The position numbers and the translations under genes were made by a program. Positions 28,535 to 38,124 of a DNA stretch of 64,000 bases are shown in pieces. Source of the DNA: Cognatundibacterium aquatile (GTDB taxonomy: Bacteria > Pseudomonadota > Gammaproteobacteria > Burkholderiales > Burkholderiaceae_D); the NCBI RefSeq assembly GCF_014699135.1, contig NZ_JACOFT010000003.1, positions 558,001 to 622,000 on the forward strand, written 5' to 3'. The notes beneath the pieces were generated by a model that saw only the letters and a list, made by a program, of their open reading frames with translations, was not told the origin of the DNA and made no database searches. Each line of letters starts with the position of its first letter. Positions within the stretch are counted from its first letter, which is position 1.

Positions 28535-30088
28535 ATGAATTTACTCAAAACTCTTGCTTCTATCAGCGGCATGACGATGTTGTCGCGTATTACAGGCCTG
28601 GCGCGCGACATTCTGATTAACAGCCAGTTCGGTGCGAATGCACTGTCCGATGCATTCAATATCGCGTTCCGTATTCCGAATCTTTTACGCCGTTTATTTG
28701 CCGAAGGCGCGTTTGCGCAAGCTTTTGTGCCGATTCTGGCCGAATATAAAGTCAGGCAGGGCGAAGAAGCGACGAAGGCGTTGGTCGATCATGTCGCGAC
28801 TTTGCTGACCTGGGCTTTGCTGCTGACCTGCGCGGCTGGCATCGTCGGTGCGCCGGTGATTTTATATGTGGCGGCGAACGGTTTGCTTGACCGGCCGGAC
28901 GTATTTAACGCCAGCGTGGTGATGACGCGCATCATGTTCCCTTACATCGGTTTCATGTCGATGGTGGCGCTGGCTGGCGGCATTTTAAATACCTGGCGCG
29001 AATTCAAAATACCGGCTTTTACGCCGGTGATTTATAACCTGACCTCAATCGCGGGATCTTTGTGGCTGTCACGTTTTCTTGAGCAACCTATCTATGCGTT
29101 GGCGATCGCGGTTTTCGTCGGCGGCGTGCTGCAGATGGCGATACAGGTACCGGCTCTGGTCAAAATCGGCATGTTGCCACGCATAGGCTGGCGGCCGCAT
29201 ACCGCATGGCAGGACGAAGGCGTGCGCCGCATCGTGCGCAATATGCTGCCGGCGATATTGGCCGTGTCGGCGTCGCAGATCAGTATTCTGATCAACACCA
29301 GTCTGGCCTCCAAAATGGTTGCTGGCAGCACCAGCTGGCTTGCCAGCGCAGATCGTTTAATGGAATTTCCAACCGCGTTGCTGGGTGTGGCCTTAGGCAC
29401 GATCTTGCTGCCGGGCTTGTCGAAAGCCAATGCCGATGGCGATACCACCGAGTATTCGGCATTGCTGGATTGGGGCTTACGTTTGACTTTCCTACTGGCG
29501 ATGCCCGCTGCCGTGGCGCTGGCAACGATACCCGAAGCGCTGACTGCCACCTTGTTTCACCATGGTAAATTCGATGATCATGCGGTGCAGATGACTTCGC
29601 ATGCCCTGATTTCTTATGGCATCGGTCTGATTGGTCTGATCGTGGTGAAAATTCTGGCACCGGGTTTTTACGCGCGGCAGGATATACGCACGCCAGTCAA
29701 AATCGCGCTGACCGTGATGATCGCAACGCAATTGCTGAATCTGGTGTTTGTGCCTTTGTTCGCGCATGCCGGTCTGGCTTTATCGGTCGGGCTCGGCGCT
29801 TGTGTTAATGCGCTGTTGCTGTTTATCGGCTTGCGTCGCCGCGGTATTTTCCATCCCCAAAAAGGCTGGCTGATGTTTCTGATTAAACTCGCTGCGGCAT
29901 TAATGCTGATGGCCGCGGTATCGTCGTGGATGTCAGATCAGATACCCTGGCTGGCGATGAAACATACGCCGTTGCTGCGCGCCGGTGCTTTGTTCGTGCT
30001 GATACTGATATCGGCGGCGGCGTATTTCGGTGTGCTGGCGGTGATGGGATTCCGTCCGAAAGATTTCAGGAAAACAGCGAAGGTCTGA
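28535..30088 (+). CDS. murJ: Lipid II flippase MurJ
   Basis: 517-residue MATE-like membrane protein of about 14 helices that flips lipid II to the periplasm for peptidoglycan synthesis. The opening (SGMTMLSRITGLARDILI, then AFRIPNLLRRLFAEGAFAQA) is the MurJ signature. The single plausible start is ATG 28535, which lacks a Shine-Dalgarno sequence. It is followed by a strong bidirectional terminator. Confidence 0.96.
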   Translation: MNLLKTLASISGMTMLSRITGLARDILINSQFGANALSDAFNIAFRIPNLLRRLFAEGAFAQAFVPILAEYKVRQGEEATKALVDHVATLLTWALLLTCAAGIVGAPVILYVAANGLLDRPDVFNASVVMTRIMFPYIGFMSMVALAGGILNTWREFKIPAFTPVIYNLTSIAGSLWLSRFLEQPIYALAIAVFVGGVLQMAIQVPALVKIGMLPRIGWRPHTAWQDEGVRRIVRNMLPAILAVSASQISILINTSLASKMVAGSTSWLASADRLMEFPTALLGVALGTILLPGLSKANADGDTTEYSALLDWGLRLTFLLAMPAAVALATIPEALTATLFHHGKFDDHAVQMTSHALISYGIGLIGLIVVKILAPGFYARQDIRTPVKIALTVMIATQLLNLVFVPLFAHAGLALSVGLGACVNALLLFIGLRRRGIFHPQKGWLMFLIKLAAALMLMAAVSSWMSDQIPWLAMKHTPLLRAGALFVLILISAAAYFGVLAVMGFRPKDFRKTAKV

Positions 30089-30104
30089 GTGTTTCTCCGA
30101 TAAT

Positions 30105-30134
30105 AAAAAAGGGATGCCGCGGCATCCCTTTTTT
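30105..30134. terminator. Bidirectional terminator, murJ / ppnP
   Basis: The core GGGATGC-CGCG-GCATCCC stem is extended by six A-T pairs on its outer side, between convergent genes. It works on paper on both strands. Confidence 0.9.
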
Positions 30135-30152
30135 ATTACCTCTGAATACAAC

Positions 30153-30470
30153 TTACACGACGAAATGGCAAACGTAATCAAGAGTTTCCAGCGTTTCAAT
30201 TTCAAAGCTGGAATTGGCTGGCACCTGAAATTGCTGACCGCCTTCATATACTGACCATTCGCTGTCGCCTTTGACGCGGATGCGGCATTTGCCTGCGTTC
30301 AGTTCCATGATTTCAGCCGCGCCTGTATTGAATACCAGGCTGGATGGGAAAATCACGCCTATGGTTTTTTTTGTGCCGTCAGCCAGCAATACTGTGTGGG
30401 AAACACATTTGCCGTCGAAGTAAATATTCGCTTTTTTTACGACGCTGACCTGGTCGAATTGAGTTGTCAT
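30153..30470 (-). CDS. ppnP: Pyrimidine/purine nucleoside phosphorylase PpnP (DUF1255)
   Basis: 105-residue cupin-like enzyme that phosphorolyses several nucleosides. The family core ([46 protein letters not shown]) is intact. The start at 30470 is set by family length; the frame extends upstream into the argG 3' region without support. It follows argG on the same strand after 76 bases. Confidence 0.93.
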
Positions 30471-30546
30471 GTTGTTCTGTTCCAAAAAAACAGCCCGCAT
30501 AAAAAGCGGGCTGAGATGCATTGATAAAAGCGGGTGTATTTCCTGA

Positions 30547-31779
30547 TTACTGACCGCGTTTTGCGCGGGCATTTGCTGCAATACGCATACGCAATGCGTT
30601 GAGCTTGATGAAGCCACCAGCATCCGCCTGGTTGTAAGCGCCGCCGTCTTCATCAAAAGTAGCAATGTTCATGTCGAACAGAGAATCTGTTTTGGAATCA
30701 CGCGATACGGTGATCACATTGCCTTTGTACAGCTTGACGCGTACCCAGCCATTGACCGTTTGTTGTGTCTGATCGATCAGGGTTTGCAGAGCGATACGCT
30801 CTGGCGCCCACCAGTAGCCGTTGTAAATCATGCTGGCGTAACGTGGCATCAGATCATCTTTCAGATGCGCGACTTCGCGATCTAGTGTGATCGATTCAAT
30901 CGCACGGTGCGCACGCAGCATGATGGTGCCGCCTGGCGTTTCGTAGCAACCACGGGATTTCATACCGACATAACGGTTTTCCACCAGATCGAGACGACCG
31001 ATACCGTGTTTACCACCCAGACGGTTTAATTCAGTCAGCACCGCTGCTGGCGACAAGCGCTTGCCGTTCAGGGCGACGATGTCACCGCGCTCGAATTCGA
31101 TGTCCAGATATTCTGGTGCATCTGGTGCTGCTTCCGGGCTGACTGTCCAGCGCCACATCGATTCTTCTGCTTCAGCACTTGGGTTTTCAAGGTGGCGACC
31201 TTCAAAACTGATGTGCAATAAATTCGCATCCATCGAATACGGTGCGCCGCCATTTTTGTGTTTCTGGTCGATTTCTATGCCTGCGTCTTCTGCATATTTC
31301 ATCAGTTTTTCGCGGGACAATAAATCCCATTCACGCCATGGTGCAATGATCTTCACGCCCGGCATCAGCGCATAAGCACCGAGTTCGAAACGCACCTGAT
31401 CGTTGCCTTTGCCAGTCGCACCATGCGAGATCGCATCGGCACCGGTTTCTTTAGCGATTTCGATCAGGCGTTTGGCGATCAGCGGACGGGCAATCGATGT
31501 GCCGAGCAGATATTCACCTTCGTAAATCGTATTGGCGCGGAACATAGGGAAAACGAAATCGCGCACGAACTCTTCACGCACGTCATCGATATAAATGTTT
31601 TCTGGCTTAATGCCGAATTTGATCGCTTTGGCACGTGCCGGTTCCAGCTCTTCACCCTGGCCCAGATCGGCAGTGAAGGTCACGATTTCGCATTGATAAT
31701 TGTCTTGCAGCCATTTCAGTATGACTGAGGTATCCAGACCGCCGGAATAGGCGAGGACGACTTTTTTAATATCGCTCAT
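30547..31779 (-). CDS. argG: Argininosuccinate synthase
   Basis: ATP-dependent condensation of citrulline and aspartate in arginine biosynthesis. 410 residues. N-terminal PP-loop [17 protein letters not shown], then [15 protein letters not shown] and [18 protein letters not shown] are family blocks. A GAAAG precedes ATG 31779. argF lies directly upstream with a 48-base gap, so the two are probably one operon. Confidence 0.97.
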
Positions 31780-31827
31780 AGTGTGCTTTCAAAATGTCTA
31801 TTTAAAACGGTGTGTGCTTGATCCGGC

Positions 31828-32742
31828 TTAGCTGATTTCGCCAACAACCAGATATTCTAATAAAGCTTTTTGTACGTGCAGACGGTTTTCTGCTTCATCC
31901 CAGACCACAGACTGCGGGCCATCGATCACGCCAGCTGATACTTCTTCGCCGCGATGAGCAGGCAGACAGTGCATGAACAGCGCATCCGTATTGGCGCGAG
32001 CCATTTTTTCTTCATCCACAATCCAGCCGTCAAATGCTTGCAGACGCGCCTGATTTTCGGCTTCGTAACCCATGCTGGTCCAGACATCGGTATTCACCAG
32101 ATCAACGCCGGCACAGGCATCGGATGGATTGTCGAACAAGGTGTACTGCGACGGATCTGCGCTGACCAGCGACATATCCATGTCATAGCCTTTGGGTGTC
32201 GAAATATGCAGATGGAAATTGAATATCTGGGCGGCTTGCAGCCACGAATACAGCATGTTGTTCGCGTCACCTATCCATGCGACTTTTTTGCTCGTGATAG
32301 AACCGCGATGTTCGATGTAGGTGAACACGTCGGCCAGAACCTGACACGGATGGTGCTGGTTGGTTAAACCATTGACGACAGGGACGCGCGAATTGGCGGC
32401 GAATTTTTCTATCATTTCTTGTTCGAATGTGCGGATCATGATGATGTCGCACATCCGGGACATGACCTGACCTGCGTCTTCAACAGGTTCGCCGCGACCA
32501 AGCTGACTGTCACGCGTATTCAGATAAATTGCCGCGCCGCCGAGCTGATGCATGCCAGCTTCAAATGACAGACGGGTACGGGTGGAATTTTTCTCGAAAA
32601 CCATCACCAGCGTTCTGTCGAGCAGAGGGTGATAGGTCTGATAAGCTTTGAACCGTTGTTTGATGATGCGCGCACGTTGCATCACATATTCAAATTCGGT
32701 CAGCGTGAAATCGGAAAATTGCAGGAAGTGTTTGATAGCCAT
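31828..32742 (-). CDS. argF: Ornithine carbamoyltransferase
   Basis: Makes citrulline from ornithine and carbamoyl phosphate. 304 residues. Carbamoyl-phosphate motif EKNSTRTRLSFE, then HPCQVLADVFT and the ornithine-binding MHCLPAHRGEE are present. ATG 32742 (MAIKHFLQF) is chosen; a TTG at 32760 would lie inside a hairpin. There is no Shine-Dalgarno sequence. Instead a strong stem-loop ends 9 bases before the ATG, followed by a U-rich stretch. Confidence 0.95.
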   Translation of the reverse strand: MAIKHFLQFSDFTLTEFEYVMQRARIIKQRFKAYQTYHPLLDRTLVMVFEKNSTRTRLSFEAGMHQLGGAAIYLNTRDSQLGRGEPVEDAGQVMSRMCDIIMIRTFEQEMIEKFAANSRVPVVNGLTNQHHPCQVLADVFTYIEHRGSITSKKVAWIGDANNMLYSWLQAAQIFNFHLHISTPKGYDMDMSLVSADPSQYTLFDNPSDACAGVDLVNTDVWTSMGYEAENQARLQAFDGWIVDEEKMARANTDALFMHCLPAHRGEEVSAGVIDGPQSVVWDEAENRLHVQKALLEYLVVGEIS

Positions 32743-32751
32743 AAATAAAAC

Positions 32752-32798
32752 CGGCAGCAAGTGAGCTTGCTGCCGCCTGTTATAACTGCTTCATTATA
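32752..32798 (-). promoter_or_regulatory. argF leader: -10 element and terminator-like hairpin
   Basis: On the minus strand a TATAAT (32798-32793) is followed by a perfect 10-bp stem with a 4-base loop (32775-32752), then GTTTTATTT and the argF ATG. The hairpin plus U-rich tract looks like an intrinsic terminator placed in the leader, which suggests attenuation or occlusion of the start codon. No -35 match was found. Confidence 0.55.
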
Positions 32799-33136
32799 AA
32801 GGATTAAAGCGGCTTTCCCATATTAAATTCAGAAGATGACGGGTTTGAAAATTAATTTGTGGGCGCTTTTGACATTTATTTGCGAAAAATCAGCTTTGTT
32901 GTTGCGATATTGAAATGTTGTTTGATTGCGTGCGGAATTGTTAATTTTCGTGAATTAGTAAAAAAAAGTAACTCTACTTGATAATCTTATTGTTCTGACA
33001 TCATTGGTTCTCGGTAAGCTATTTATAATGCCTCTGATTGTAGAATTTGTTTCTTCAGAGAATTTGTCGTTAATCTGACTGGCATTTGAGCTGGCAGATC
33101 ATTTGTATTGAACAACATTTACCCGGATTAATTATT
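32799..33136. other. A/T-rich gap between argF and the acetylation genes
   Basis: A divergent control region of about 340 bases. It holds long A/T runs and a TATAAT at 33024-33029 facing the SGNH gene, with only a poor -35. No ORF or RNA gene is recognised. Confidence 0.4.
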
Positions 33137-33796
33137 ATGAGTGCACTTTTAGCCGGACTGACCGTCCTGATTATTGGCGATAGCCATATGTCCACACCTG
33201 ATTATCTGATCACGACTTTGCACGATGATCTGATGAATAAAGGTGCCGTCGTCTATTCTTTCGGTGCCTGCGGCGTCGCCGCCGGTGACTGGATGGTAAA
33301 GAGCCAGTCTTCTTGCGGCGGTGCTGTTCGTCTGAAAGATGGTCCGGTTGAAGTGAAAACCGGGCAGGATGCAATGACGCGTCCGTTCAATGAACTGGTC
33401 AAAACCTACAAACCAAATCTGGTGGTTGTGGTGAATGGCGATACGATGGCGTCGTATTCTCAGCCAGAACTGCAAAAAAACTGGGTCTGGCAACAGGTTT
33501 CCCGTCTGACTAAAGGCGTCAAAAATAACAATGTGAGTTGCGTCTGGGTTGGCCCGGCCTGGGGTACTGAAGGCGGCAAATTCAATAAAACTTATGCCCG
33601 TGCCAAAGAAATGTCTGGTTACCTGTCTGAGATCGTGGCGCCATGCACTTATATCGATTCACTCAGCCTGTCTAAACCTGGCGAATGGGGCACGATTGAC
33701 GGTCAGCATTTCGACGGTGCTGGCTATAAATCCTGGGGCAGTGCGATCGGTAATGCGATCGCCACACCTGCGATTCTGAATTCAATCAAACGTTAA
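33137..33796 (+). CDS. SGNH-fold protein of a polysaccharide acetylation set (WssF-like position)
   Basis: 219 residues. The SGNH/GDSL blocks are GDSH (Ser16) and DGQHFDG (Asp188, His191), so the catalytic triad looks complete. Only about 8 hydrophobic residues precede the first strand, so no normal signal peptide is seen. A TTG further upstream (33086) would lengthen the protein but gives no export signal either. It leads a run with AlgF-, AlgI- and AlgJ/X-like genes, the order of wssFGHI in Pseudomonas fluorescens. Its role in acetyl transfer or removal is inference. Confidence 0.75.
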   Translation: MSALLAGLTVLIIGDSHMSTPDYLITTLHDDLMNKGAVVYSFGACGVAAGDWMVKSQSSCGGAVRLKDGPVEVKTGQDAMTRPFNELVKTYKPNLVVVVNGDTMASYSQPELQKNWVWQQVSRLTKGVKNNNVSCVWVGPAWGTEGGKFNKTYARAKEMSGYLSEIVAPCTYIDSLSLSKPGEWGTIDGQHFDGAGYKSWGSAIGNAIATPAILNSIKR

Positions 33797-33813
33797 TATC
33801 CAGATTGACCGGC

Positions 33814-33855
33814 CGTGCGCCACCAGATTTTTATCTGTGGCGCACGGGTGTTTTT
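33814..33855 (+). terminator. Intrinsic terminator inside the acetylation cluster
   Basis: Ten-bp stem CGTGCGCCAC / GTGGCGCACG with further inner pairs, followed after a few bases by five T. It separates the SGNH gene from the three downstream genes and may lower their expression. Confidence 0.75.
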
Positions 33856-33919
33856 GGCTGGCATGATGCCTGTTTGTATTGTCGGCTTTGTCTTTGACCG
33901 CATAGACTGATTCATCAAA

Positions 33920-34576
33920 ATGAAAAAAATTATCCTTACTTGCCTGGCTTCCGTCTTGTCTCTGAGCGCTTACGCAGATAATCCTTTGTATGAAACCGGA
34001 CCTGGTCAGGATTCATCCTTCGTGCGCTTTTTGAATGCCAGCAGCGATAAGGCCGTTGTCGTCAACGGCGCCGCTAAAGTGAGTCTGGATGTTAAAAATG
34101 AGAGCCGTGTTTCGCGGTTTTATCCGGTCAAGGCCGGCGATAAACTGAAGGCCAGTGTGCAAGTCGGTGCCGCTAAAACCAATGTGGAAGTTGTGGCGAA
34201 GCCGGGTGAATTTATTACTGTCACCATCCTGAATAAAGGAACGGCGCTTGAAAGTATGCTGGTGCGCGAAGCGCCAACCGATTTCAATGCCATGCGTTCT
34301 TCTATTTCTCTGATGAATGTCGATAGCAGTTGCGCTGCCGCCTCGCTGACGGGGGGCGCCAAGGCCGCGACGATTTTTGAAGGCGTTAAACCAGCCACAA
34401 CACAACGCCGTCTGGTGAACCCAGTGGCGCTCACAGTGCAGGCGAATTGTGGCACTGACGCTGCCGGTGCAGCGGTCGATATGTCGCAATTGCAAGCGGG
34501 TGAACGCTACAGCATTATCGTGATTCCTGCGAAAAAAGGTCGTCAGACTTTTTTTGTACGCGATTCCACTTCCTGA
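33920..34576 (+). CDS. AlgF-like periplasmic O-acetylation protein
   Basis: 218 residues with a clear signal peptide (...SLSAYA). The mature part resembles AlgF/WssG: the opening YETGPGQDSSFVRFLNAS, beta-rich repeats, and the end RYSIIVIPAKKGRQTFFVRD. AlgF is an essential accessory factor passing acetyl groups to exported polysaccharide. Here it is followed 20 bases later by the MBOAT gene. The similarity is judged by eye, so I leave the symbol blank. Confidence 0.8.
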   Translation: MKKIILTCLASVLSLSAYADNPLYETGPGQDSSFVRFLNASSDKAVVVNGAAKVSLDVKNESRVSRFYPVKAGDKLKASVQVGAAKTNVEVVAKPGEFITVTILNKGTALESMLVREAPTDFNAMRSSISLMNVDSSCAAASLTGGAKAATIFEGVKPATTQRRLVNPVALTVQANCGTDAAGAAVDMSQLQAGERYSIIVIPAKKGRQTFFVRDSTS

Positions 34577-34596
34577 TCTGAATCAGGATTTTTCTC

Positions 34597-35994
34597 ATGG
34601 TATTCGCTTCTCTTGAGTTTCTGACGCTATTTCTGCCTCTGTTTTTTGCGCTGTATCTGGTCACCCCGCAGCAGTATCGCAATCACACTTTGTTGTTTGG
34701 CAGCTGGTTGTTTTATGCATGGTGGACGCCTAAATTTCTGCTGTTGATTATTGCGCTGACCATCCTTGCATGGGGTGCTGCGATCCTGATTGACCGAACC
34801 AATGATGAACGCCTGAAAACACGACTGATGGCGGCAACCATAGTGTTGAATCTGGCGTCGCTGGTCTGGTACAAATACACCAACATGGTGGTGTCGTCGC
34901 TCAACACCATACTCACGGGGCGGCAGATGCCCGTCATACCGTGGGAAAACCTGATGCTGCCGATAGGCTTGTCGTTCACGGTATTACATGCGATTTCGTA
35001 TATCGTGGATGTGCGTCGCAAGACCGTACCCGCACAGTACAGCTTTATTTCTTTCAGTGCGTATATGGCGATGTTCCCGCATCTGATTGCCGGCCCCATC
35101 GTCCGTTATAAAGTGATCGACAAAGAACTGCGCGAACGTGTTTTTTCATTTGAAAAATTCACGCTTGGCGCACGTCGTTTCATGATTGGTTTTTCGATGA
35201 AGGTCTTGATTGCCGATACGCTGGCACCGGTGGTGGCACTGGCGTTTGGCTTGAAAAATCCCGGCTTTGGCGATGCCTGGGTTGGCTGTATTGCCTATAC
35301 GTTTCAACTGTATTTTGATTTCGCCGGTTATAGCGCAATGGCGATTGGCCTTGGGCTGATGCTGGGTTTTCATTTTGAGGAAAATTTCAATAACCCGTAT
35401 CTTGCGGTGTCGATACAGGATTTCTGGCGGCGCTGGCACATGACCCTGTCGTCATGGTTACGGGATTATCTTTACATCAGCCTCGGCGGTAATCGCCAGG
35501 GAAAAATCCGCACCTATGTGAATCTGATGCTGACGATGGCAATCGGTGGTTTATGGCATGGCGGTGATAACTGGAATTATCTGATCTGGGGCATCATTCA
35601 CGGTAGCGCACTGTGCTGTGATCGCGCTTTTACTCAACGTGGCTGGTCTATGCCCAATTTTGCTTCGCGCAGCCTGACTTTGTTGGCGGTGATGTTTGCC
35701 TGGACGATCTTCCGTGCCGCAGGTTTCGACAATGCGCTCGACATGTGGGCGGGACAACTTGGTTTAAACGGTATGAGTATCGGTGATGAAATCATTCTGG
35801 CTTTGCGTCCCGGTATTTTGCTGACCTTTGTGATAGGTCTGATTTGCGTGGTTTATCCTGCGACCCGGATAGCGAAACAGGGCGGTCTCGGTATTATGAG
35901 CTGGAGTATGGTCTGGCCAGTACTTACCTTTGCTTATGCAGTGATCGTACTGGCAGGGCAAAAGGCAATTCCATTTTTGTACTTCCAGTTTTAA
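34597..35994 (+). CDS. MBOAT membrane O-acyltransferase (AlgI/WssH-like)
   Basis: 465 residues, about 10-12 membrane helices. The MBOAT signature includes NFNNPYLAVSIQDFWRRWHM, WLRDYLYISLGGNRQG and the catalytic histidine in GGLWHGG (His321). It moves acetyl groups from a cytoplasmic donor across the membrane for transfer to a polysaccharide. The neighbours point to WssH (acetylated cellulose) or AlgI (alginate). No alginate polymerase genes are present, whereas bcs genes lie 24 kb away. Confidence 0.92.
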   Translation: MVFASLEFLTLFLPLFFALYLVTPQQYRNHTLLFGSWLFYAWWTPKFLLLIIALTILAWGAAILIDRTNDERLKTRLMAATIVLNLASLVWYKYTNMVVSSLNTILTGRQMPVIPWENLMLPIGLSFTVLHAISYIVDVRRKTVPAQYSFISFSAYMAMFPHLIAGPIVRYKVIDKELRERVFSFEKFTLGARRFMIGFSMKVLIADTLAPVVALAFGLKNPGFGDAWVGCIAYTFQLYFDFAGYSAMAIGLGLMLGFHFEENFNNPYLAVSIQDFWRRWHMTLSSWLRDYLYISLGGNRQGKIRTYVNLMLTMAIGGLWHGGDNWNYLIWGIIHGSALCCDRAFTQRGWSMPNFASRSLTLLAVMFAWTIFRAAGFDNALDMWAGQLGLNGMSIGDEIILALRPGILLTFVIGLICVVYPATRIAKQGGLGIMSWSMVWPVLTFAYAVIVLAGQKAIPFLYFQF

Positions 35995-36003
35995 GAGGAA
36001 AAC

Positions 36004-37149
36004 ATGAGCGAATCTTTTTCCTTTGATGCAAAAAAAGCCGGAGCGTGGCGCTATGTGCCAGCCTTGTCGTTTGCAGCGATACTTGCTGCTGGCCTGGTTG
36101 CGACGGTATCGTCTTTGCAAGAAGTGCCACTGCAGAAGTGGCGAGAGATGGGGGACGTGCAGAAGATTGTTCAGGGTGAAGCGACGCGGATGTTTACGAC
36201 GCAGCTCAATGAACATTTTTCATGGAGTAAAACATTTGCCAAATTTGAGCGGGCGGTTCGATGGAATCTTGCGCGCGATGCAGGCCCGAATGTGCGTGTC
36301 GGTTGTGACGGTTGGTTTTTTTTACAGGAAGAGCTGACGACATTTGACGGCGGCGCACAGAATGCAAATGCGCGCGCATACATGGTCGGACAGATTGCGC
36401 AAAGCCTGAAAAAGCAAGGCGTGCAACTGGTGGTGGCGGTCGTTCCGGATAAATCACGGGTGGAACAGCAGCATCTGTGTGGCCTGCACCGGCCAGCGGG
36501 CTTTGCCCAACGCGGCGATGACTGGATTAAGGCTTTACGTGCAAAACAGGTTGAGGTGATCGATCTGTATCCTGCACTGAGCAGTTTCAGTGGTGAGCGT
36601 TATTACCGGACCGATTCGCACTGGAGTGAGGCAGGTGCGAATGCAGCGGCGGCAGCGATTGCCAGGCATTTGCAAAGTGCTGGCCTGGTTGATAAGTTCA
36701 ATGCGGAGCTTCCTGCAGGTGCGGTGAAAACCGTGATCGCAGAGCGCATGGGGGATTTATTCCGCGTCGCCAATCTGGATGGATTACCGGCTGCTTTACG
36801 TCCCGCAATTGAAAGGACTGCGACCAGTACCGTGGCACCAGTCGCGAATAACAGCGACGATTTGTTTGGTGACGGCGGATTGCCTGCGGTAGCTTTAATC
36901 GGCACCTCATTCAGCTTGCGCGGTAATTTTGTGCCGTTTCTGAGTCAGCATCTGGCGGCACCGGTAGCGAATCTGGCCAAAGATGGCGGTGATTTTGACG
37001 GTTCTGCCTCAGCCTATCTGCACAGCAAAGCATTGCAGCAGGAACCGCCAAAAGTCGTAGTGTGGGAGATTCCAGAACGCATGTTGCAAAAGCCGTTCAA
37101 ACCCTCAGAGCGTGCCTGGCTGGAAAGCCTGAAGCAAGGCAAGCTGTAA
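36004..37149 (+). CDS. AlgJ/AlgX-like SGNH acetyltransferase (WssI-like)
   Basis: 381 residues. An N-terminal membrane anchor (about 17-38) is followed by a periplasmic SGNH-like domain with VVPDKSRV, RTDSHWS (Asp204, His206) and the nucleophile in LIGTSFS (Ser302), the AlgJ/AlgX/WssI pattern. It would attach acetyl groups to the exported glucan. AGAGGA precedes ATG 36004, 9 bases after the MBOAT stop. Confidence 0.88.
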   Translation: MSESFSFDAKKAGAWRYVPALSFAAILAAGLVATVSSLQEVPLQKWREMGDVQKIVQGEATRMFTTQLNEHFSWSKTFAKFERAVRWNLARDAGPNVRVGCDGWFFLQEELTTFDGGAQNANARAYMVGQIAQSLKKQGVQLVVAVVPDKSRVEQQHLCGLHRPAGFAQRGDDWIKALRAKQVEVIDLYPALSSFSGERYYRTDSHWSEAGANAAAAAIARHLQSAGLVDKFNAELPAGAVKTVIAERMGDLFRVANLDGLPAALRPAIERTATSTVAPVANNSDDLFGDGGLPAVALIGTSFSLRGNFVPFLSQHLAAPVANLAKDGGDFDGSASAYLHSKALQQEPPKVVVWEIPERMLQKPFKPSERAWLESLKQGKL

Positions 37150-37218: not shown

Positions 37219-38124
37219 TCAGTAACCGACCGTTTGTGCCGATTCATGCACGAGTTGTTCAAACAGCTCGTGCCGCATAGCGGCGATACTGCCCTCTTTT
37301 ACTGCCGCCAGAATTGCGCAGCCAGGCTCGGCGTGATGGTGGCAATTGTAGAATTTACAGTGCCCCAGATGAGGTAAAAATTCCGGGAACGCCCGTTCCA
37401 GCATGCCTTCACTCAGATGATGCAGACCGAATTCCTGAAAGCCCGGCGAATCAATCACATACGAGTTTTCATCCATTTGATACAGACGGGTGAACGTCGT
37501 CGTGTGTTTGCCGGTATCCAGCGCTGCCGAAATTTCACGGGTGGCGATTTCCGCATCGGGAATCAGCAGATTAATCAGCGAGGATTTCCCCATGCCCGAC
37601 TGGCCTATCAATATCGTGCTTTGGCCGCGCATCAGGTTTTCCATTGTCATCCGAGTGCCTTCAGGATCGGCTTTAGCCGATACTTCATGCACCGGGTAGC
37701 CTAGCTTCGCATACAAGCCGACACGTTCACGCGCTTTCGGCAGTGATTCGGTGACATCCACTTTGTTCAGAATCAGATGTGGCTTGATGCCGGAAGATTC
37801 TGCCGCAACCAGTGCCCGCGAGACCAGATCGTCAGTAAAGCTGGGCTCTGTCGCGACTACAATCAATAGCTGGGTCAGATTCGCTGCCAGCATTTTTGAC
37901 TTGTACTGATCTGAGCGGTACAGCAAGGTTTTACGCGGCGTAATCGCTTCGATCACGCCCTGATTTTTCGACGTCAGAGCGAATTCAACCACGTCACCGA
38001 CAGAGACATCGCTTTTCTTGCCACGTGTGACGCAATGCAGTTTTTGTACTTCGCCGTTGATCGTTGCCTGTATCAGGTAATGACGACCATGTGCAGCGAT
38101 AACCAGACCTTGTAGATGCGCCAT
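37219..38124 (-). CDS. rsgA: Ribosome small-subunit GTPase RsgA
   Basis: Circularly permuted GTPase in 30S maturation. 301 residues: N-terminal OB fold, NKVD (G4) preceding the Walker [10 protein letters not shown], then DSPGFQEFG (G3), and a C-terminal zinc knuckle [14 protein letters not shown]. The ATG overlaps the stop of the pterin dehydratase gene by one base. Confidence 0.95.

Follow-up and report, generated by a model that had tools for sequence, protein, structure and literature searches.

A conserved, covarying hairpin between the presumed promoter and the start codon of argF in Undibacterium and other Oxalobacteraceae

The argF locus and its leader

The argF gene, encoding ornithine carbamoyltransferase (304 aa; Pfam OTCace_N and OTCace), occupies 31828..32742 on the minus strand of the window, that is, of the whole 64,000-nucleotide stretch that was analysed, and its closest named counterpart comes from an Undibacterium MAG (90% identity), the next being from Oxalobacteraceae. 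According to Pfam, it is followed by argG, the gene for argininosuccinate synthase (30547..31779, minus strand; Arginosuc_synth), and by a ppnP-like frame. On its other side, four plus-strand frames (33086-37149) lie between argF and rsgA (37219-38124, minus strand): one has no Pfam match, one is AlgF-like below the cut-off, and the other two are MBOAT and AlgX. We take the four as an alginate-type O-acetylation set. A frame with an rsgA-like C-terminus, as judged by eye, ends 50-190 nt before argF in many relatives, and the segment 33086-37149 therefore looks like an insertion.

Read along the minus strand, the leader starts with a TATAAT box (32793..32798), presumed from its conservation to be the -10 element of the argF promoter; it has no good -35 partner and is missing from the listing of a sigma-70 scan. 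Assuming a start 7 nt after this box, the transcript would open with a short unpaired 5′ end (32776..32786). There follow the 5′ arm of a hairpin, CGGCAGCAAG (32766..32775), a loop of 4 nt, CTCA (32762..32765), the 3′ arm, CTTGCTGCCG (32752..32761), a U-rich spacer, GTTTTATTT, that joins the stem to the AUG (32743..32751), and the argF ATG (32742-32740), before which no Shine–Dalgarno (SD) sequence is visible. The stem (32775-32752) is perfect, with 10 bp of which seven are G-C. The arrangement given in the sequence-only reading, namely TATAAT, a perfect 10-bp stem-loop, the spacer and an SD-less ATG, was confirmed on the minus strand. The letters GTTA at the presumed transcription start (32786-32783, minus strand) recur, by eye, from Undibacterium to Burkholderia. 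A block CTGAATTTAATATGGG 5′ of the -10 box (32832-32817, minus strand) is, likewise by eye, common in Undibacterium argF promoters; we take it to resemble half an ARG box, yet ArgR was not found.

The earlier suggestion that a leader of this kind would be unusual for a gene under ArgR control does not apply here, as the ArgR C-terminal domain (PF02863) was found in none of 60 genomes of the order, 36 of them from this genus, compared with 8 of 14 named genomes, E. coli included, in a control search. A comparative study describes ArgR as highly conserved in gammaproteobacteria and absent from other classes (PMC5343134), and in the open-licence literature that we searched we met no account of how arginine synthesis is controlled in Burkholderiales without ArgR.

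Taken by itself, without its conservation, the hairpin is not striking. A 101-nt segment folds at -24.8 kcal/mol (z -1.98), 6 of 200 shuffled sequences being equally stable, and positions 30000-36000 hold 10 terminator-like sites compared with 7.5 (sd 2.6) in shuffles. Its 25-base pattern occurs once in the genome besides its own reverse complement, with one further site at three mismatches; a repeat element was ruled out, the genome having no second copy of the hairpin. A search with Rfam 15 returned only a tRNA above the gathering cut-off in the whole window, four unrelated matches far under their cut-offs in the leader region, and no match in the leaders of nine relatives. No description of an argF leader hairpin in these bacteria was found in the available text, supplements aside, of the open-licence literature (PMC4603805, PMC2965389, PMC5343134, PMC5688073, PMC4035088, PMC3014915, PMC6146998).

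Conservation and covariation of the stem

In the genus, which is Undibacterium to judge by its named relatives, model R1 of the leader gave matches at E <0.003 in 29 of 43 genomes. For 27 of the 29 loci built from these matches, tblastn located the N-terminal portion of argF, mostly directly behind the match; in the remaining two (L133, L137) the match lies beside broken or partial pieces of argF. A multi-gene regulon was rejected on the matches at this threshold, weaker ones (E 0.02 to 1) being outside the count: the 29 genomes have one match each, always before argF, with the exception of one genome (G035) that has two matches on two contigs and argF on both. Six loci from Undibacterium relatives, in which a frame ends 2-32 nt before argF (L025, L027-L029, L032, L033), lack TATAAT and hairpin alike; the frame adjoining argF in L027, the one tested of the six, encodes a class-III aminotransferase, and L018, where the leader is present, has a frame of the same family at a distance of 126 nt from argF.

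The leader is also present in many other Oxalobacteraceae. Identical upstream sequences being merged, the family provided 137 distinct regions upstream of argF; of the 115 family genomes with the gene, five (G447, G480, G481, G499, G502) are not in the counts. Searched for by the same finder under identical settings, a stem scoring at least 15 with its foot 8-11 nt before the start was found in 78 of these 137 regions compared with 3 of 122 control genes, and one scoring at least 18 in 70 of 137 compared with 0 of 122, the control genes being ATG-started ORFs of at least 150 aa with unverified starts. Seven divergent family loci outside the 137 (L253-L259) had no such stem, which brings the overall count to 78 of 144. 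Among the 77 leaders with a foot at 8-11 nt that we used for further comparison, three (L050, L052, L248) have stems of unrelated sequence. TATAAT lies 5′ of the stem in 73 of the 77, and 46 of 60 regions without a stem also have it no more than 100 nt from the start; since the box is so common in stemless regions, promoter and stem are separable.

Compensatory changes in a conserved stem, the check proposed in the sequence-only reading, were found in both alignments of the leader. In the first 22 leaders, aligned by MAFFT without a structure model, 6 of 10 pairs had changed on both sides and the covariation score was 0.317 compared with 0.175 in shuffles; one of the five measures, that of further pair types, stayed within the shuffles (70 of 500). 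An alignment of 74 leaders, 70 of them distinct, has changes on both sides at 8 of 10 pairs, in 28 cells. It scores 0.226, with shuffles at 0.130 (none of 500 as high) and slid pairings at no more than 0.100; a reservation is that this alignment was fitted to the model, which favours structure. The slid controls weigh more, as kinship alone can push sequences past the shuffles without any structure. It is this conservation that decides that the hairpin is real, because compensatory change exceeds the controls, and we consider it very likely that the hairpin belongs to a genuine, conserved argF leader RNA. Comparison of the sequences thereby lends support to a functional leader hairpin.

Towards the edges of this distribution the picture becomes less uniform. 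Model R1 matched 74 of 86 chosen loci, the 12 misses being L189, L245, L246, all six Oxalobacter-like loci and three g185 loci. The g185 loci keep TTTT with weak complementarity; the Oxalobacter-like leaders, of which the model finds 0 of 6, have shorter stems with a foot at 10-11 nt and no U-run, two of the six being within chance. In three further loci (L276, L073, L075) the stem is kept with only 3-4 T in the first eight spacer bases, and a fourth (L072) has 5. Leaders of the Massilia/Duganella type, 28 loci picked by eye, are without the stem: only one (L050) has a stem rarer than 5% of shuffles (0 of 400), and for the others at least 51 of 400 shuffles are as good, or there is no stem.

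When a foot at 8-11 nt was sought in the Burkholderia group, stems of 7-9 bp were found in all 18 distinct leaders, with the foot at 8-10 nt and loops of 9-44 nt, and 0-17 of 400 shuffles were equally good; the Cupriavidus argF leader has 8 bp and a foot at 11 nt. Without the foot limit, a different stem scores best in 11 of 19 Burkholderia-group leaders. A shared layout in this group is therefore likely, but less certain given the competing stems. By eye, competing hairpins are seen in Burkholderia (GACGGC-GGC-GCCGTC) and in other Oxalobacteraceae (GGCG/CGCC) and not in Undibacterium, and we dropped alternative hairpins as a general mechanism, as Undibacterium is without them. Outside Undibacterium a GGCGCC palindrome is often seen in the loop region (L042, L226, L231, L239, L240), and it could form an alternative hairpin or take part in loop–loop pairing. 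An order-wide search matched 16 of 399 genomes at E <=0.1, several of them weakly, a count that is too low because the model was tuned to one family and the filters were strict; even so, the leader is far from universal in the order. In three Limnobacter loci (L088, L089, L101) the end of a hairpin lies 8 nt short of the argF ATG; there is neither a U-run nor, within 100 nt, a TATAAT box, and 10-14 of 400 shuffles are equally good.

The region between stem and start codon

The distance from stem to start is nearly fixed while the loop is variable. Among 75 leaders selected by arm sequence, with the position of the foot left free, it lies at 8-11 nt in 71, and loops measure 3-12 nt; the other four are a locus in which a later ATG was taken as the start (L021), L168, a chance pick of the Massilia type (L198) and a locus with a GTG start (L221). 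In the 77 leaders, which were selected for a foot at 8-11 nt, the foot is at 9 or 10 nt in 69 and the loop measures 3-14 nt. The spacer itself is conserved in these leaders, with T at -8 in 75, at -7 in 74 and at -2 in 74, and A at -4 in 69. Between stem and AUG, the number of bases is divisible by three in 46 of the 77 and not in 31, and a coding explanation was rejected, the span being in frame in only those 46. L010 and leaders like it in Undibacterium have, by eye, an ATG 14 codons upstream, in the argF frame, that reads through the hairpin; other leaders are without it.

The lack of an SD sequence is general. The energy of pairing with the anti-SD has a median of +0.7 kcal/mol in the 77 leaders, 1 of which reaches -5 kcal/mol or lower, compared with a median of -2.55 kcal/mol and 21% at or below -5 kcal/mol in the 122 control genes. 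The presumed 5′ segment before the hairpin, which measures 11-13 nt in 67 of 73 leaders if the start is assumed 7 nt after TATAAT, has no SD either: none of the 73 reaches -5 kcal/mol, the minimum being -3.0 kcal/mol. Nor did computed pairing give any support to the earlier proposal that the fold exposes or hides the start, the start region (-9..+6) having a mean unpaired probability of 0.589 when the hairpin is present and of 0.606 when its letters are shuffled, and accessibility being better with the hairpin in 40 of 73 leaders. An insulator that frees the start codon was consequently set aside, as computed accessibility shows no gain.

Candidate roles of the leader

The observations describe a covarying stem that has a conserved -10 box on one side and an SD-less start on the other; its spacer is nearly constant in length, its loop is not. 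We tentatively favour a structured, SD-less 5′ leader that acts after transcription, on translation or on the life of the message, and that possibly leaks premature ends. Transcription would begin about 11 nt before the stem; the folded stem may then occupy the place of the SD helix on the 30S subunit, and the U-rich single strand behind it could be a binding stretch for ribosomal protein S1. In such a scheme the stem would set the initiation of argF translation, the lifetime of the message, or both, and the leader, in bacteria that have no ArgR, would probably be a fixed module and not a switch. Some transcripts may also end in the spacer, since it is rich in U, and we would regard such termination as a side effect and not as the main role.

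This preference draws on the covariation, the near-fixed distance from foot to start, the missing SD, the stems of the Burkholderia group and Cupriavidus, the stems with a poor U-run, and a stem-loop precedent from Cupriavidus necator. Several observations count against it: start accessibility is not improved; the stemless Massilia/Duganella-type relatives also look SD-less by eye; two leaders (L168, L189) keep stem and U-run with the AUG 17 and 22 nt away; the spacer has T, almost never A, at -8 to -6, as in a terminator; other stems compete in the Burkholderia group (11 of 19); and the Oxalobacter-like leaders are missed by R1.

Known leaders offer partial likenesses. That of E. coli rpsA (S1) has an SD-less start, several hairpins, A/U-rich single strands and feedback by S1; it shares with argF the SD-less start with hairpin and A/U-rich single strands, whereas the argF leader has one hairpin in place of several. 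The leaders of T4 genes 38 and 25, in which a hairpin shortens the distance from an upstream SD according to the available text (PMC3014915), are alike in that the hairpin lies close before the AUG and is part of initiation, and unlike in that no SD precedes the argF hairpin (0 of 73), for which reason an SD bypass of the gene 38 kind was excluded. In Cupriavidus necator H16, insertion of a T7 gene 10 stem-loop ahead of the SD increased reporter output 1.5- to 3-fold and made the mRNA more stable, as far as the available text reports (PMC6146998). It resembles the argF hairpin as a 5′ UTR stem-loop, in the same order of bacteria, that raises output and mRNA level, and differs in sitting before an SD in an artificial context. 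The argF leader lends itself to the question whether the SD helix can be replaced by a hairpin in initiation, and a conserved, compact SD-less leader with a hairpin nearly fixed to the AUG provides a handle on arginine control in Burkholderiales without ArgR.

A leaky intrinsic terminator is a quite possible alternative that we rank closely behind a role after transcription, and both can be true. Here, a share of argF transcripts would stop in the U-run before the AUG, and if that share responded to a factor acting in trans, the leader would be an attenuator, a role suggested in the sequence-only reading; of that suggestion the functional leader has gained support from the covarying stem, whereas attenuation is only a candidate role, the U-run being borderline in the window and poorer behind the stem of some Burkholderia-group relatives, and the stem being preceded by only about 11 nt under the presumed start. 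A conserved -10 is followed by a GC-rich hairpin, a U-run and then the AUG, hairpin plus U-run being the order of an intrinsic terminator; T stands at -8 and -7 in nearly all of the 77 leaders (75 and 74), and L168 and L189 retained stem and U-run after the AUG had moved. The terminator discriminant d, as formulated here, is above 0 in 39 of the 77 (median 1.6), but -1.0 in the window, where the tail score of 2.54 is borderline. Fourteen other hairpins of the window have d of 8-44, 13 of them with T-runs of 6-9, a contrast that is one-sided because the scan admitted only tails scoring above 2.8; 15 strong hairpins after genes, taken without selection on the tail, have mixed tails, 3 of them with at least 5 T of 8, though T-runs were taken into the stems. 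Further points against termination as the main role are the stretch ahead of the stem, roughly 11 nt long under the start predicted from the -10 box, and the three loci (L276, L073, L075) that have the stem with 3-4 T of 8. Because the terminators used for comparison had been preselected and other stems compete with those of the Burkholderia group, we moved a little weight from a role after transcription to the leaky attenuator. The leader of E. coli ampC is an intrinsic-terminator attenuator without a leader peptide, and such attenuators, like the argF leader, place a GC-rich hairpin with a U-run after the promoter and ahead of the start codon; they are unlike in that the argF U-run is of borderline strength in the window and weaker in certain relatives, and that the argF AUG lies only 9-10 nt behind the stem, with no SD and no known signal.

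A bolder version, in which an order-wide argF leader RNA replaces the missing ArgR in Burkholderiales and the stability of the stem, or a bound factor, decides between ending and translation of the message according to the supply of arginine, carbamoyl phosphate or nucleotides, seems unlikely to us. Somewhat more doubtful still is a 5′-terminal stabiliser of the ompA kind, which would guard the message against RNase E and have no role in initiation. Stabilisers of this type are not known to tolerate unpaired 5′ ends as long as the 11-13 nt presumed for the argF leaders, and the fixed distance to the AUG would be left unexplained; for it speak the nearness of the stem to the presumed 5′ end and, in the available text, the stabilisation of mRNA by a stem-loop in C. 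necator (PMC6146998).

Two DNA-level or upstream explanations appear highly improbable. A DNA operator for a dimeric repressor just after the start site would agree with an inverted repeat 3′ of the -10 box, but the loop varies from 3 to 14 nt and base changes preserve pairing and not sequence, which counts against an operator because a dimer bound to DNA should call for constant spacing and sequence. A terminator that stops transcription coming in from an upstream gene would suit the many relatives in which a co-directional frame ends 50-190 nt before argF, but the stem is preceded by the argF -10 box, and the stem is kept in the window despite the divergent neighbouring frame.
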